Shown here: positions 1,015 through 7,003 of the stretch, in pieces
Position numbering within the stretch: the stretch's first letter is position 1
Layout: the number at the start of each line of letters is the position of its first letter
NCBI GenBank assembly: GCA_026414365.1
Contig: JAOAJD010000001.1
Location: 231,687 to 295,686 of the forward strand
Origin: Candidatus Iainarchaeum sp.
GTDB taxonomy: Archaea > Iainarchaeota > Iainarchaeia > Iainarchaeales > SKW153
Length of the DNA: 64,000 nucleotides
Direction of reading: 5' to 3'
The notes under the pieces: generated by a model
Database searches by the model: none
Told to the model about the DNA's origin: nothing
Seen by the model: only the letters and a program-made list of their open reading frames with translations
Made by a program: the position numbers and the translations under genes

Positions 1015-2592
1015 ATGGACAAAATAATCAAATTCTCAAAAGAGGTAATTGAAGAGATTATAAAAGAAAATGTAGAAAATAGAGAGCAAATAAATAATAT
1101 AAAAATGCGAATTGCAGAAAAATATAAGTTAAAAGAAATGCCGAGCAATGCAGATATATTAAAATATGCAAACCCTACTGACGAAAGGATAAGGAAAATA
1201 CTTTTAAAAAAACCAGTCAGAAGTGCCTCAGGTGTAGCTGTAGTTGCTTTAATGGTAAAACCACATAAATGTCCTGGCAAGTGTATTTATTGTCCAAATC
1301 CGATTGAAAAGAAGTCACCAAAGAGTTACACTGGCCATGAACCGGCCGCAATGAGAGCTATACAATTCAACTTTTCTCCAAAAGAACAGATAAGAAATAG
1401 GATAGGGCAATTAAAAGAAATGGGGCACTCAACAGATAAAATAGAAATGATAATAATGGGTGGCTGTTTTTTAGCAATGAGCGAGAAATATCAAAATTGG
1501 TTTGTAAAAAGTTGTCTTGATGAAATAAATAACAAAGAATCAAAAAATCTCAGAGAAGCAAAACTTAATGCAGAGCATAGCAAAAGAAAACTTGTAGGCT
1601 TAACTATAGAAACCAGACCTGATTATTGCAAAAAATACCATATAAAAAGAATATTAAATTTGGGTGCAACAAGAGTAGAACTAGGCGTACAAATGCCATC
1701 AGATTTAGTATATAAAAAGGTAAGAAGGGGACATAAAGTTGAACACGTTATAGAAGCAACAAGACTTCTAAAAGATTCTGCACTTAAAGTTTGTTATCAT
1801 ATTATGCCTGGCATATATGGAATAGATATCGATAGACAAATGGATTTGCTAAAATCTATTTTTGAAGAAGATGATTTTAAACCAGATATGCTTAAGATAT
1901 ATCCTTGTTTGGTAATAAAAAATACAAAATTATATGATCTTTGGAAAGAAGGTAAATATAAACCTTTAAACGATGAAGAAGCAGCAGAATTTATTGCAGA
2001 ACTGAAAAAGTATGTACCTAAGTGGGTAAGAATAATGAGAGTACAGAGAGATATCCCTGCAAAATTAATAACTGCTGGAGTTAAAAAAAGCAATCTTAGA
2101 CAACTGGTAGAAGAAAAGATGAAAGAAAAGAATATTATGTGTAATTGCATTAGACATAGAGAAATTGGGATAAGAGAGATAAAAAAAATTAATACACCTC
2201 AAATTGAAAGCTTAAGAATAAACAAAATAGAATATGACGCAAGCAAAGGAAAAGAATTTTTTATAGAAGCTGTTGATAAAGAAGATTCATTATATGGTTT
2301 TTTAAGGTTAAGAATCCCATATGAACCATTTGTAAAACCATTAAATAGAGAGACTGCTCTTATAAGAGAACTGCATGTCTACGGTAGTGCTTTGCCTATT
2401 GGCATAAGAAAAGAAGATGCAATACAACATAGAGGAATAGGTAAGATGCTTATGCAAGAAGCTGAAGAGATAGCTACAGAAAAAAATATGGAAAGTATAG
2501 CCATAATTTCTGCTTTAGGAGTTAGAGAATATTATAAAAAATATTTTGGCTATGAAAAAAAAGGAGTTTATATGTGGAAAAAAATAACATAA
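1015..2592 (+). CDS. elp3: Elp3-like tRNA U34 carboxymethyl-modifying enzyme (radical SAM + GNAT)
   Basis: Elp3 uses a radical SAM domain and an acetyl-CoA-binding domain to place a carboxymethyl group on wobble uridine 34 of tRNA. The cluster motif is visible as C86-x3-C90-x2-C93 (CPGKCIYCP). The radical SAM barrel follows to about residue 330 (ETRPDYC, ELGVQ and HIMPG are typical). A GNAT domain occupies about 390-525, with the acetyl-CoA loop HRGIGKMLM and the C-terminal EYYKKYFGYE. The length of 525 aa is normal for archaeal Elp3. The gene seems monocistronic, with a TTAAATAAAT box just before the ATG. The convergent M24 peptidase ends 2 bp away. Confidence 0.95.
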   Translation: MDKIIKFSKEVIEEIIKENVENREQINNIKMRIAEKYKLKEMPSNADILKYANPTDERIRKILLKKPVRSASGVAVVALMVKPHKCPGKCIYCPNPIEKKSPKSYTGHEPAAMRAIQFNFSPKEQIRNRIGQLKEMGHSTDKIEMIIMGGCFLAMSEKYQNWFVKSCLDEINNKESKNLREAKLNAEHSKRKLVGLTIETRPDYCKKYHIKRILNLGATRVELGVQMPSDLVYKKVRRGHKVEHVIEATRLLKDSALKVCYHIMPGIYGIDIDRQMDLLKSIFEEDDFKPDMLKIYPCLVIKNTKLYDLWKEGKYKPLNDEEAAEFIAELKKYVPKWVRIMRVQRDIPAKLITAGVKKSNLRQLVEEKMKEKNIMCNCIRHREIGIREIKKINTPQIESLRINKIEYDASKGKEFFIEAVDKEDSLYGFLRLRIPYEPFVKPLNRETALIRELHVYGSALPIGIRKEDAIQHRGIGKMLMQEAEEIATEKNMESIAIISALGVREYYKKYFGYEKKGVYMWKKIT

Positions 2593-2594
2593 TT

Positions 2595-3323
2595 TTATCT
2601 TGGTTTTATTAAGAAAATGTTTTTCTGTAAAGGTGTTGTTATTTCAATATCATCTTTTTTTATCAAGATGTCTACTTCAGATCTTAGTCCATATTTGCCT
2701 TTAAAATAAATACCTGGTTCTATAGTATAAAGCATATCATAGTTAAGCCTTCTGCCAGACTTTTTACCTATTTTTTCTTTGCCGTGAACTTTAGTTATGC
2801 CAAGAGAATGACCAGTACTATGAATAAAAAATTTCCCAAAACCCTCGTTGCTTATTATATCTCTTGCTATCTTATCCACTTCTTTAGCTTTTGGCAGATC
2901 ATATATGTTATCTTTTATAAAAGAGATTGCTTCATCTCTTGCTTTTACTATAATCTTAAAATAATTGTTTATCTCTTTAGGTATTCTTTTACCATAATAC
3001 GCCATCAAAGTTATATCTGCATAAGGAGAAGCCCTTTTTCTATCTCTTGCCCAAAAATCTAAAAGAATCAAATTGTTTTCTCTAAGAACTTTATTATTAT
3101 CAAACCTATAGTGAGGAAAGGCAGAATTTTCATTAAAAGCCACAATACAACCAAAATTGTCACTTATTAGCGAGCTGTTTTTATAACTGGTCTTTACAAA
3201 ATCTCTAATTTTAAGTTCATCCAAATTACGTTTATGTTTTATTAAAGTAAAGACACTCTTAAATATTCTGTTTAGTCTATTAGAAGTTTTTTTGTGACTT
3301 AGTATCTGACTAAGAGTATACAT
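2595..3323 (-). CDS. M24-family metallopeptidase (Xaa-Pro aminopeptidase/creatinase-like), short form
   Basis: A pita-bread-fold metallopeptidase expected to remove an N-terminal residue from peptides. The five usual dimetal ligands appear in order: Asp in ILLDFWA, Asp in YADITL, His in HSTGHSLGI, Glu in TIEPGIY and Glu in GLRSEVD. At 242 aa it has the catalytic domain but only a stub of the N-terminal creatinase domain of full-length PepP/PepQ (about 350-440 aa). Specificity, Xaa-Pro versus Met, is therefore not certain; the HSTGHSLGI block favours the Xaa-Pro branch. It is transcribed alone, convergent with elp3 and divergent from the CARF-like gene. Confidence 0.85.
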   Translation of the reverse strand: MYTLSQILSHKKTSNRLNRIFKSVFTLIKHKRNLDELKIRDFVKTSYKNSSLISDNFGCIVAFNENSAFPHYRFDNNKVLRENNLILLDFWARDRKRASPYADITLMAYYGKRIPKEINNYFKIIVKARDEAISFIKDNIYDLPKAKEVDKIARDIISNEGFGKFFIHSTGHSLGITKVHGKEKIGKKSGRRLNYDMLYTIEPGIYFKGKYGLRSEVDILIKKDDIEITTPLQKNIFLIKPR

Positions 3324-3427: not shown

Positions 3428-3775
3428 ATGAAAAAGTCATTAATTGCAACATTGGGCATAGGAAGAAAAACTTGGGGACATGTAAAAAGGCTTATAGCAG
3501 AACAAGATTGGGACAAAATAATTATAATTTCCAATGAATGGGGAAAACAACACTTTGCTCCAGATAAAGAATGCGAATGGATAATGGTAAACGACAGATC
3601 AGGTTTTGACTCTATAAAAAGTGAGATAAAAAATAAATTACCTGAAGGAAAGATTGCAATCTCTTTGATATCAGGCAGTGGCAAAGAACATATGGCTTTA
3701 ATTGCCGCATTGAAAGAAGAAGGCAGAGATATAGAATTAGTGACAATAACAAAAGAAGGAATAAAATATTATTAA
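3428..3775 (+). CDS. Small stand-alone CARF-like Rossmann protein
   Basis: The 115-aa protein is not assigned to a named family with certainty. By eye it has the layout of a CARF (CRISPR-associated Rossmann fold) domain. The first strand and loop is SLIATLGIG (residues 4-12), then a helix, then the strand KIIIIS (30-35). A late strand AISLIS leads into G83-S84-G85-K-E-H-M89-A, which resembles the ligand-contacting GG-T-x-x-M segment of CARF proteins, followed by helix and strand. I chose the ATG at 3428, not 3410, because an AAAGGAG ribosome site ends 6 nt before it. It lies 18 bp upstream of a membrane-anchored PD-(D/E)XK nuclease on the same strand. No CRISPR or cas genes are in the window. 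Confidence 0.5.
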   Translation: MKKSLIATLGIGRKTWGHVKRLIAEQDWDKIIIISNEWGKQHFAPDKECEWIMVNDRSGFDSIKSEIKNKLPEGKIAISLISGSGKEHMALIAALKEEGRDIELVTITKEGIKYY

Positions 3776-3793
3776 AAACAATTAGAAAAAAGC

Positions 3794-4153
3794 ATGTTTG
3801 AAATAATAGCTACCCTAATAATAGCAATCTTGATTATAACTGTTATTTATTTTTATAAAAAGACACAAGAGCTTTTTGAAATAATTGAAAGAATAAAATT
3901 TGAAAAGAGAAGCCAATCTGTAAGATATGGTAAATTAACAGAACAATATATCCCATTTACTGAAGAATTTCCTTTTGATTCTGAAAATTTTAGATTTATT
4001 GGCAACCCTATAGATGGAATTGCATTTGAAGAAAATGAGATAATATTTTGTGAATTTAAGGCATCAGACTCAAAACTAAATGAAAAACAAAGAAAAATAA
4101 AAAAATTAGTAGAAGATAAAAAGATAAGATGGTTCGAGTTTAATATGAGATAG
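3794..4153 (+). CDS. Membrane-anchored Holliday-junction-resolvase-like endonuclease (COG4741 type)
   Basis: Residues 4-20 form one transmembrane helix, followed by a basic linker with the family block SVRYGKLTEQ and a PD-(D/E)XK nuclease core. The catalytic residues are visible as D74 (GNPIDGI) and E87-x-K89 (FCEFKAS), followed by the conserved LNEKQRKIKKLVE helix. This pattern matches predicted archaeal endonucleases distantly related to Hjc. The nuclease probably faces one side of the membrane as a tethered domain. It follows the CARF-like gene by 18 bp, so the two are probably cotranscribed. Its 3' end overlaps the convergent pelota gene by 14 bp. Nuclease activity is inferred from motifs only. 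Confidence 0.8.
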   Translation: MFEIIATLIIAILIITVIYFYKKTQELFEIIERIKFEKRSQSVRYGKLTEQYIPFTEEFPFDSENFRFIGNPIDGIAFEENEIIFCEFKASDSKLNEKQRKIKKLVEDKKIRWFEFNMR

Positions 4154-5168
4154 GGAATCTTAGAAAAGCCGCAATGCCACCGACGGAATCTAATTTCTTC
4201 TTTGCTTCACACTCAGAACTTATTATTCTTATCTTACCACCTTTATCTTCAACTCTCTCAAAAATCATTTCTAGAGAATCTCTCTCTTTATGAAAAAAAG
4301 AATCGGAGACCAGAAGTATATCTATTGCACCTAAAGATGCTGCTTTTTCTACATCTTGTAAAGAATAAGCCACTGGTTTACTTTTTCCCAAGTATTCAAA
4401 AAATTTTTCTATTAAATTGGTTTCTTCTAGAATTTCCATCTGACCAATCTCTTTTAAAAAACTCTCATTTTGCATAAGCTCATTTATCCCAGTTTCTCCA
4501 ATACAGGAAGTAGAAACTAATACAACCTTCTGCTTAAATGAGTTTTCCATTAAGAATTTGTAAAGTATTTCTTTTTCGAAACCTGGGCCTGCTATAACCA
4601 GAATATTTGGTTTGTGATTATCAATAAGCATTTTTAACTCTTTGTAAGAAGCTTGACTTTGTTGGCCAAATCTTTTACCAGATCTCTCTAAAGAAATTTT
4701 TGCTATTAGCTCCTTTGAGAAATCTTTCAACAAATAAAACTCTGCACTCTCATCATCAATTAACAAAACATATAATTTCTTTTTTGGATTTTGTGTTCTT
4801 TTTATTTTCTCGATCTGCCAATCATAAAGCCTCTGTTTTTTTAATTTTAGTAAAACTCCTGGCAATAAGTCTAAAGTATGAAATGCTCCTACTTCAATAT
4901 ATTCTTCTGGATAACCAGAAACTATTTTTCCAGAAATCCTGAGCAGATCTTTACTGGCTGAAAATTCAACCTTGGAAACTTCTAACTCAACAAATATTTT
5001 TAATCTAAAAGGTTTCTGGTAATTGTTAGTAGGTTTTATCTTTCTTTCACTGTTTCCCTTGACAATATCCCCTATATCTAAGATTTTAGATATGTGCCAG
5101 AGATCATCCAAAGATTCAGGTAATATTTCAATATAATTATTCTTTTTATCTAAAAAAATCACTTTCAT
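4140..5168 (-). CDS. pelA: aPelota (Dom34-family ribosome rescue factor)
   Basis: Pelota is an eRF1 relative that enters the empty A site of stalled archaeal ribosomes and, with aEF1A and ABCE1, splits them. The three domains can be followed: an Sm-like N-terminal domain (about 1-125, including DDLWHISKIL and GAFHTLDL), a central domain (about 130-250, with ERSGKRFGQQ and ILVIAGPGFEK) and a C-terminal domain (about 260-342, with EVEKAAS-like YSLQDVEKAASLGAI). There is no GGQ motif, as expected. It is divergent from ABCE1, with 53 bp between the two start codons, so two functional partners share one promoter region. Confidence 0.95.
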   Translation of the reverse strand: MKVIFLDKKNNYIEILPESLDDLWHISKILDIGDIVKGNSERKIKPTNNYQKPFRLKIFVELEVSKVEFSASKDLLRISGKIVSGYPEEYIEVGAFHTLDLLPGVLLKLKKQRLYDWQIEKIKRTQNPKKKLYVLLIDDESAEFYLLKDFSKELIAKISLERSGKRFGQQSQASYKELKMLIDNHKPNILVIAGPGFEKEILYKFLMENSFKQKVVLVSTSCIGETGINELMQNESFLKEIGQMEILEETNLIEKFFEYLGKSKPVAYSLQDVEKAASLGAIDILLVSDSFFHKERDSLEMIFERVEDKGGKIRIISSECEAKKKLDSVGGIAAFLRFPISY

Positions 5169-5221: not shown

Positions 5222-7003
5222 ATGAAAGAGGATTCAACAAAGCAAAGAGTAGCGGTAATAGAGTATAAGCTATGCCAACCAGAGGCATGTGGCAATTTTT
5301 TGTGCATAAGAGTTTGCCCAGTAAACAAAATGGGAAAAGAGTGTATTAAAAAAAACATTGAAGAAAAACCAGAAATTGATGAAAATCTTTGTACTGGTTG
5401 CGGGATTTGCCAAAAGAAATGTCCTTTTGAAGCAATTCATATAATAAACATATCTACAAAATTAGGTAAGCCAATTCACCAATATGGAAAAAATGCTTTT
5501 AGGTTGTATAGACTTCCGCTACCAAAAGAAGGTTTTGTTGTTGGAATAATAGGTAAAAATGGTGTTGGGAAATCTACTGCCCTAAAGATAATATCAGGTA
5601 TATTAATCCCAAATTTAGGTAATTATGAAGAAAAGGAAAACATAGAAAAAGTTCTGGAATATTACAGAGGTAATGAAATATATAAGCTCTTTGAAAAAAT
5701 AAAAAATAAAGAAATTAAAATATCTTATAAACCACAAAATGTAGAAATAATCCCAAAATACTACAAAGGAAGAGTTATTGATATTTTAGAAAAACATGAT
5801 AGAGAAAAAGTTGATAGGATTATTGAACAATTAAACATAAAAGATTACTTAGATAGACTGTTAGAAAACTTAAGTGGGGGCGAACTACAAAAATTAGCAA
5901 TAGCACTCTGTATTTTAAAGGATGCTGAATTATATGCCTTTGATGAACCATCTTCTTATTTAGACATATACGAAAGAATGAGAATAGCAAAACAGATTAG
6001 AGAACTAGCAGAGAAGGGCAAAAGTGTTATAGTAATAGAACATGACTTAGCTTTATTGGATTATCTTAGCGATTATGTTCACGTTGTGTTTGGAAAACCT
6101 TCTGCATATGGTGTTTTCTCAACAATTAAGAACTCTAAGAATGGGATTAATGAATATTTAGATGGGTTCTTAAAAGATGAAAATCTAAGGTTTAGATCTG
6201 AAGAAATTAAATTCGATGTAGTAGCACCAAATATTGTAGAAAACAGGAAGATATTTACAACATACCCAGAAATGAGAAAAAATTACGAAAATTTTAGATT
6301 AGTTGTAGAAGCTGGTGAAATAAAGAAAGGTGAAGTTTTAGGTATTTTCGGGCCAAATGCAATAGGGAAAACTACTTTCATCAAAATGCTTGCAGGAGTT
6401 GAAAAACCAGATAATGTAAATTTAGAATGGAGATATAAGATTGCATATAAGCCCCAATATCTTACAATAGACGAAAACATCTTAGTTAGAGAATTCTTAG
6501 ATAAATCTAATATTGACAAAGAATTCTTTAACATGTGGTTTGAAAAAAAATTAGATTTGAAAAAATTATTGGATTGCAAACTATCTGAGCTTAGCGGAGG
6601 AGAATTGCAGAAAGTATCGGTAGCTGCGACAATTTGTAAAGACTCAGACATTATTTTATTAGATGAGCCTTCTGCATATGTAGATATAGAAGATAGGTTA
6701 ATAATGGCTGAAGTTATAAGAAAGGCTGCAGAAGTAAAAGAAAAGCCTATAATTGTAGTAGATCACGATATAATTTTTGTAGATTGTGTCAGTGAAAGAA
6801 TAATTGTGTTTGAAGGTAAACCTGCTTTTGAAGGTAGAGCTACAAGAGCTTTAGAAAAAAGAGAAGGTATGAATAAATTTTTAGGTAATATGCAAATAAC
6901 TATGCGCAGAGAAAAGACAACAGGAAGACCAAGGATAAATAAATTGAATTCACAACTTGATCAAGAGCAAAAAAAAGAAGGGAAATATTATTATCTTTAC
7001 TAA
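5222..7003 (+). CDS. abcE1: ABCE1/Rli1 ribosome-recycling ATPase
   Basis: ABCE1 separates ribosomal subunits after termination or rescue. The N-terminal iron-sulfur domain has two cysteine groups: C18, C23, C28, C32 and C57, C60, C63, C67. Two ABC cassettes follow. The first has Walker A GKNGVGKST and signature LSGGELQKLAIA. The second has Walker A GPNAIGKTT and signature LSGGELQKVSVA. The hinge and C-terminal R-rich tail are present, and 593 aa is the normal length. The second Walker A has Ala where Gly is more usual (GPNGIGKT), a mild oddity. It starts as an isolated plus-strand transcript divergent from pelota. Confidence 0.97.
   Translation: MKEDSTKQRVAVIEYKLCQPEACGNFLCIRVCPVNKMGKECIKKNIEEKPEIDENLCTGCGICQKKCPFEAIHIINISTKLGKPIHQYGKNAFRLYRLPLPKEGFVVGIIGKNGVGKSTALKIISGILIPNLGNYEEKENIEKVLEYYRGNEIYKLFEKIKNKEIKISYKPQNVEIIPKYYKGRVIDILEKHDREKVDRIIEQLNIKDYLDRLLENLSGGELQKLAIALCILKDAELYAFDEPSSYLDIYERMRIAKQIRELAEKGKSVIVIEHDLALLDYLSDYVHVVFGKPSAYGVFSTIKNSKNGINEYLDGFLKDENLRFRSEEIKFDVVAPNIVENRKIFTTYPEMRKNYENFRLVVEAGEIKKGEVLGIFGPNAIGKTTFIKMLAGVEKPDNVNLEWRYKIAYKPQYLTIDENILVREFLDKSNIDKEFFNMWFEKKLDLKKLLDCKLSELSGGELQKVSVAATICKDSDIILLDEPSAYVDIEDRLIMAEVIRKAAEVKEKPIIVVDHDIIFVDCVSERIIVFEGKPAFEGRATRALEKREGMNKFLGNMQITMRREKTTGRPRINKLNSQLDQEQKKEGKYYYLY

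Follow-up and report, generated by a model that had tools for sequence, protein, structure and literature searches.

A predicted stand-alone CARF-fold protein encoded beside a membrane-anchored COG4741 nuclease in small-genome archaea

The window analysed here, a stretch of 64,000 nucleotides from an archaeal contig, carries two small neighbouring genes whose products, P0001 and P0002, were described in an earlier note as a CARF-like protein paired with a membrane-anchored nuclease. Both open reading frames are present on the forward strand, separated by 18 bp and encoding 115 and 119 residues respectively, and a GGAG sequence lies just 5' of the P0001 ATG. The genome to which the window belongs comprises 579 kb and is 69% complete, and its closest relatives in GTDB are named Candidatus Diapherotrites. 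The genes and motifs of the locus, with the evidence on which each description rests, are as follows.

1015..2592, forward strand: Elp3 (radical SAM and GNAT domains), conserved upstream neighbour of the CARF and nuclease genes across the order (Pfam, synteny)
2595..3323, reverse strand: M24 metallopeptidase of 242 residues, in the slot between elp3 and the CARF gene where most relatives have a winged-HTH (wHTH) gene (open reading frame, Pfam, locus comparison)
3428..3775, forward strand: P0001, 115-residue stand-alone protein with a predicted CARF fold (open reading frame, homologues, predicted structure, PDB fold matches, motif alignment)
Within P0001: an LGxGKGTWGH motif following strand 1 and an SGSGKEH motif following strand 4, both resembling parts of a ligand pocket
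3794..4153, forward strand: P0002, 119-residue membrane-anchored PD-(D/E)XK nuclease, COG4741/PF10107 Endonuc_Holl (Pfam match, invariant core residues, model)
4140..5168, reverse strand: Pelota (eRF1-like), convergent neighbour of the nuclease gene, conserved with or without CARF (Pfam, synteny)
5222..7003, forward strand: ATPase of ribosome recycling, ABCE1/Rli1-like, a conserved neighbour (synteny; sequence with two ABC domains and a ferredoxin-like N-terminus)

Upstream of this elp3 gene, outside the window, lie genes for PTH2, a CCA-adding enzyme, a ThpR-like 2',3'-cyclic phosphodiesterase, Tyw3 and a metallophosphoesterase (L187, 7036-14847). The tRNA-gene neighbourhood was considered as proof of P0001 function and rejected, because the elp3-pelota-ABCE1 synteny is kept in genomes without the CARF gene and is missing in other lineages that have it.

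The structure of P0001 was predicted by AlphaFold from a 34-sequence family alignment, giving a confident model (pLDDT 93.5, pTM 0.88) of topology b-a-b-a-b-a-b-a-b-b, with strands at residues 4-8, 31-35, 50-53, 76-79, 102-108 and 111-114 and a beta hairpin at its end. The best 36 PDB fold matches are exclusively CARF proteins (probability 0.99-1.00), headed by Can2 (8q41, E 1.2e-4, TM 0.68) and with Crn1 (Sso2081) as the second protein in the list; Csa3 (2wte), Csm6, Cam1 and Cad1 are also among them. Structure prediction and comparison with CARF domains, the check put forward in the earlier note, has thus been carried out and agrees with the fold proposed there, and because all 36 of these matches to a confident model are CARF proteins, a CARF fold for P0001 is supported at the level of predicted structure.

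CARF domains are defined by a six-stranded Rossmann-like core in which strands 5 and 6 form a beta hairpin, together with a conserved basic residue after strand 4 in the motif [DN]x[ST]xxx[RK] (PMC4012209). The predicted model of P0001 has both the six-stranded core and the 5-6 hairpin, and after strand 4 the SxxxK spacing is exact, although the [DN] two positions before the serine is not conserved among 81 family sequences. The GSGKEHMA segment that had first suggested a ligand-binding region is indeed found in P0001; across the same 81 sequences S82, G83, G85, E87 and H88 are invariant, K86 is kept in 93%, and the strand-1 loop GKGTWGH is nearly invariant. The end of strand 1, where CARF domains are expected to carry an alcoholic residue (S/T), varies by lineage, reading S10/T11 in the Woesearchaeota and Methanofastidiosum copies and mostly G/I in Diapherotrites. 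In the model, the two conserved motifs sit where CARF domains bind ligand.

At the level of sequence the resemblance is faint. Pfam, NCBIfam and PADLOC scans of 34 family members returned no family at curated cut-offs, most of the weak PADLOC matches being to CARF models, and direct sequence searches of the PDB with P0001 and with its profile gave noise only. Aligned by hhalign with 28 archaeal Csa3-like proteins, the family profile scored 24.6, with a maximum of 22.0 in 100 column shuffles and 13.1 for the reversed profile; the associated probability was 7.6%, though the score lay above all 100 shuffles. A search of a viral fold library with P0001 gave no named CARF protein.

P0002 matches PF10107 (Endonuc_Holl) with E 5.5e-18 and 65.7 bits (cut-off 23.8), and combines this Pfam match with the N-terminal transmembrane helix and the E-D-ExK core of the family. 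The helix is a single hydrophobic segment (Kyte-Doolittle mean 2.67 over 19 residues from residue 2), and the nuclease core residues picked out in the earlier note, D74, E87 and K89, are invariant, as is E50, in 32 homologues. The predicted model consists of a long N-terminal helix (residues 2-55) and a minimal core, for which fold matches are weak, activated Card1 (non-significant) and Hjc-type resolvases being placed on top. An earlier description of COG4741 (PMC1189080) presents it as a family of PD-(D/E)XK proteins, mostly from archaea, that have a transmembrane helix at the N-terminus and a nuclease domain predicted to be cytosolic. P0002, whose helix, minimal core and predicted orientation are the same, is therefore a known kind of nuclease: its identification as a membrane-anchored PD-(D/E)XK protein holds, but the family is not a new one. 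The conserved placement of the gene between elp3 and pelota in Diapherotrites is not described in that work.

Relatives of P0001 are present in 46 of 93 related genomes (identity up to 69% by single-sequence search, the same 46 being found with a profile), and relatives of P0002 in 67 of the 93, which marks both as genuine, conserved genes. In GTDB contigs approximately 270 relatives of P0001 were found, extending to Woesearchaeota, Nanoarchaeia, Methanofastidiosum and MAGs labelled Thermococci and Methanomicrobia, and every copy read is a stand-alone protein. Plasmids and viral contigs were searched and yielded no relatives, so that P0001 looks like an ordinary chromosomal gene. At six loci (L076, L081, L085, L089, L097 and L100) an archaeal P0001-family gene in archaeal context is found under the labels Thaumarchaeota, Falkowbacteria, Chloroflexi, Firmicutes or Aminicenantes; these look like misnamed bins.

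The nuclease gene lies downstream of the CARF gene on the same strand in 37 of the 46 CARF genomes, at a distance of 170 nt or less in 34 and mostly within 100 nt. Co-occurrence was assessed across the order (Diapherotrites) in 75 genomes, 45 with the CARF gene and 30 without. The nuclease is present in 38 of the former and 22 of the latter (Fisher p=0.26, with shared ancestry ignored), and in 14 inspected genomes that have the nuclease without CARF it is still found beside elp3 and/or pelota. Family f4, conversely, has CARF without the nuclease. At the loci of Woesearchaeota and Methanofastidiosum the CARF gene has other neighbours, the nuclease not being adjacent. The survey of co-occurrence envisaged in the earlier note therefore bears out the common adjacency of the two genes but not a dependence of one on the other: neither needs the other, and the adjacency is largely a matter of conserved gene order, given that the nuclease is about as common without CARF and its locus is then kept. 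The genes are separate, as had been proposed, with two open reading frames in the window and no CARF-nuclease fusion in any copy translated; the further claim that they form a two-gene functional unit equivalent to a split Can or Card protein is not supported by these data.

A different gene follows the distribution of CARF more closely. Most relatives have, between elp3 and the CARF gene and on the same strand, a gene for a winged-HTH protein of approximately 100 residues, 17 of 26 members of this family matching HTH_45. It adjoins the CARF gene in 28 of 40 informative loci, in 27 directly upstream on the same strand and in one, a rearranged locus (G076) with neither elp3 nor the nuclease nearby, in convergent orientation. 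It is absent beside CARF in the remaining 12, including that of the window, where no wHTH gene was found in the elp3-CARF slot and the M24 peptidase gene is present instead. Within the 75 genomes the wHTH gene occurs in 32 of 45 with CARF versus 2 of 30 others (Fisher p=1.5e-8, shared ancestry again ignored), an association giving p=0.0005 among genomes at least 85% complete and p=0.08 among those at least 90% complete. The partner of CARF that is statistically supported is accordingly the wHTH gene and not the nuclease, although distance correlations controlled for elp3 (0.37 for CARF-nuclease, 0.03 for CARF-HTH) point weakly the other way.

The best-known role of CARF domains is to sense the second messengers of type III CRISPR systems. 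Here the Cas10 palm domain is found above cut-off in only one of the 46 CARF genomes, with a weak match in one more. Searches of the window's own genome (69% complete) for Cas1 and Cas10 gave no match, in accord with the earlier remark that no CRISPR locus was in view. SMODS matches in many genomes were considered as signalling cyclases and set aside: at approximately 465 residues, very common and often a few kb from the CARF locus, they fit the CCA-adding enzyme, an identity confirmed by Pfam for the copy in the window's genome. Since Cas10 is nearly always missing and the SMODS matches are accounted for in this way, a type III CRISPR messenger is an unlikely ligand.

On balance, we moderately favour a reading in which P0001 is a chromosomal, CRISPR-independent, stand-alone CARF protein that lies beside a separate and constitutive nuclease and probably supplies the ligand-binding half of a Csa3-like regulator encoded by two genes. 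P0001, consisting of one CARF domain and nothing else, would dimerise, and the dimer pocket would take a nucleotide or RNA-end ligand; in genomes with the wHTH gene the signal would pass from the P0001-family protein to the separate wHTH protein. Csa3, an archaeal CRISPR regulator, likewise associates a CARF fold (2wte) with a winged HTH, but in Csa3 the two are fused and the gene belongs to CRISPR loci, whereas here they are separate genes, with the wHTH gene upstream and sometimes missing and usually no Cas10. Where the locus has no wHTH gene, as in the window's genome, P0001 might have a different partner or might itself cleave its ligand in the manner of a ring nuclease, and the invariant E87-H88 pair, with K86, would suit catalysis. 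P0002 would be a distinct COG4741 enzyme with a predicted cytosolic nuclease domain, belonging to the conserved elp3-pelota-ABCE1 block, that perhaps shares transcription with the CARF gene and is not its obligate effector. A precedent for an RNA ligand outside CRISPR is provided by RtcR, a protein of RNA metabolism whose divergent CARF domain binds tRNA halves with a cyclic phosphate end (PMC7790460). In RtcR, however, CARF is fused to AAA+ and HTH domains, whilst P0001 stands alone and its RNA ligand is hypothetical.

Among the alternatives, it is rather unlikely, but deserves weighing, that P0001 has no obligate partner and is itself an enzyme, using K86-E87-H88 to cut an RNA end or a cyclic oligonucleotide. 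The high rank of Crn1 among the fold matches, the stand-alone state of all copies read and the difference in partners between lineages are all consistent with this, as is the complete invariance of E87 and H88, which is unlike ordinary CARF motifs. Against it, the Cas10 and SMODS searches detected no source of a cyclic oligonucleotide in most genomes, and the tRNA-gene neighbourhood is neither kept in other lineages nor confined to genomes with CARF. Crn1 is, like P0001, a stand-alone CARF domain and a strong fold match, but P0001 is shorter (115 residues), with its own motif SGSGKEH and no type III locus.

A split version of the Can and Card nucleases, in which P0001 would bind a cyclic nucleotide and switch on the membrane-tethered P0002 in trans, appears improbable. 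For P0001 the best fold match is Can2, and for P0002 the top match, albeit a non-significant one, is activated Card1; both proteins are predicted on the cytosolic side, and the same-strand adjacency in 37 genomes and the partial distance correlation of 0.37 given elp3 would also be expected. The independent occurrence of the nuclease, which 22 genomes of the order have without CARF, the reverse situation in f4, the other neighbours of CARF in Woesearchaeota and Methanofastidiosum and the near-universal lack of Cas10, the cyclic-oligoadenylate synthase, speak against it. Whilst Can1, Can2 and Card1, the ancillary nucleases of type III systems, share with this locus a CARF fold and a PD-(D/E)XK nuclease, there the two form one polypeptide, and here they are unfused, often encoded next door to one another, and inherited independently, with a membrane-anchored COG4741 enzyme as the nuclease.

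DAGK_cat, another Rossmann-like fold with a glycine-rich loop, matched 11 family members weakly (best 8e-5) and was dropped as an identity for P0001 because the fold matches are to CARF only. More generally, that some other Rossmann-like domain (SLOG, DAGK or similar) has converged on a CARF-like shape is very unlikely: those weak matches, the low sequence similarity to CARF and the presence of SLOG/DUF2493 proteins among the viral fold matches can be cited for it, but no SLOG or DAGK structure is found in the best 36 PDB matches, and both the closing beta hairpin and the SxxxK that follows strand 4 are characteristic of CARF domains.

The favoured reading of P0001 as a CRISPR-independent CARF protein can be extended, tentatively and with a good deal of doubt, to a widespread archaeal module in which a stand-alone CARF protein would sense a host-made nucleotide or a damaged-tRNA end and control a separate wHTH protein and, in some lineages, perhaps the neighbouring membrane nuclease or an Orc1/Cdc6-like ATPase. 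Were this so, CARF signalling would also be a housekeeping system outside antiviral defence. In a 2025 update of CARF classification, 11 CARF families are listed for type III systems; what may be new here is a CARF family without fused effector, usually without Cas10 and in a housekeeping locus, although an earlier listing in CARF classifications is possible. That such a family is conserved in archaea that have small genomes and, as a rule, no Cas10, in company with a wHTH gene and close to genes for tRNA functions and ribosome rescue, suggests that CARF signalling also operates outside CRISPR and could shed light on how CRISPR signalling arose. P0001, at 115 residues, is a tractable target for ligand searches.

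Other genes recur near CARF outside Diapherotrites. A small winged-HTH gene lies 20 bp upstream of it in a Thermococci-labelled MAG (L099, 4519-4773), and in seven Methanofastidiosum loci (e.g. L093, 6576-6887) such a gene is found downstream of CARF, two or three genes away. An Orc1/Cdc6-like AAA+ ATPase gene follows CARF, often directly, in 20 of the 42 loci from outside Diapherotrites (L117, 6389-7426, and 19 other Woesearchaeota/Nanoarchaeia loci within L095-L130), and this ATPase is another candidate partner. A 151-residue protein without a Pfam match is encoded near CARF in 13 of the same 42 loci.
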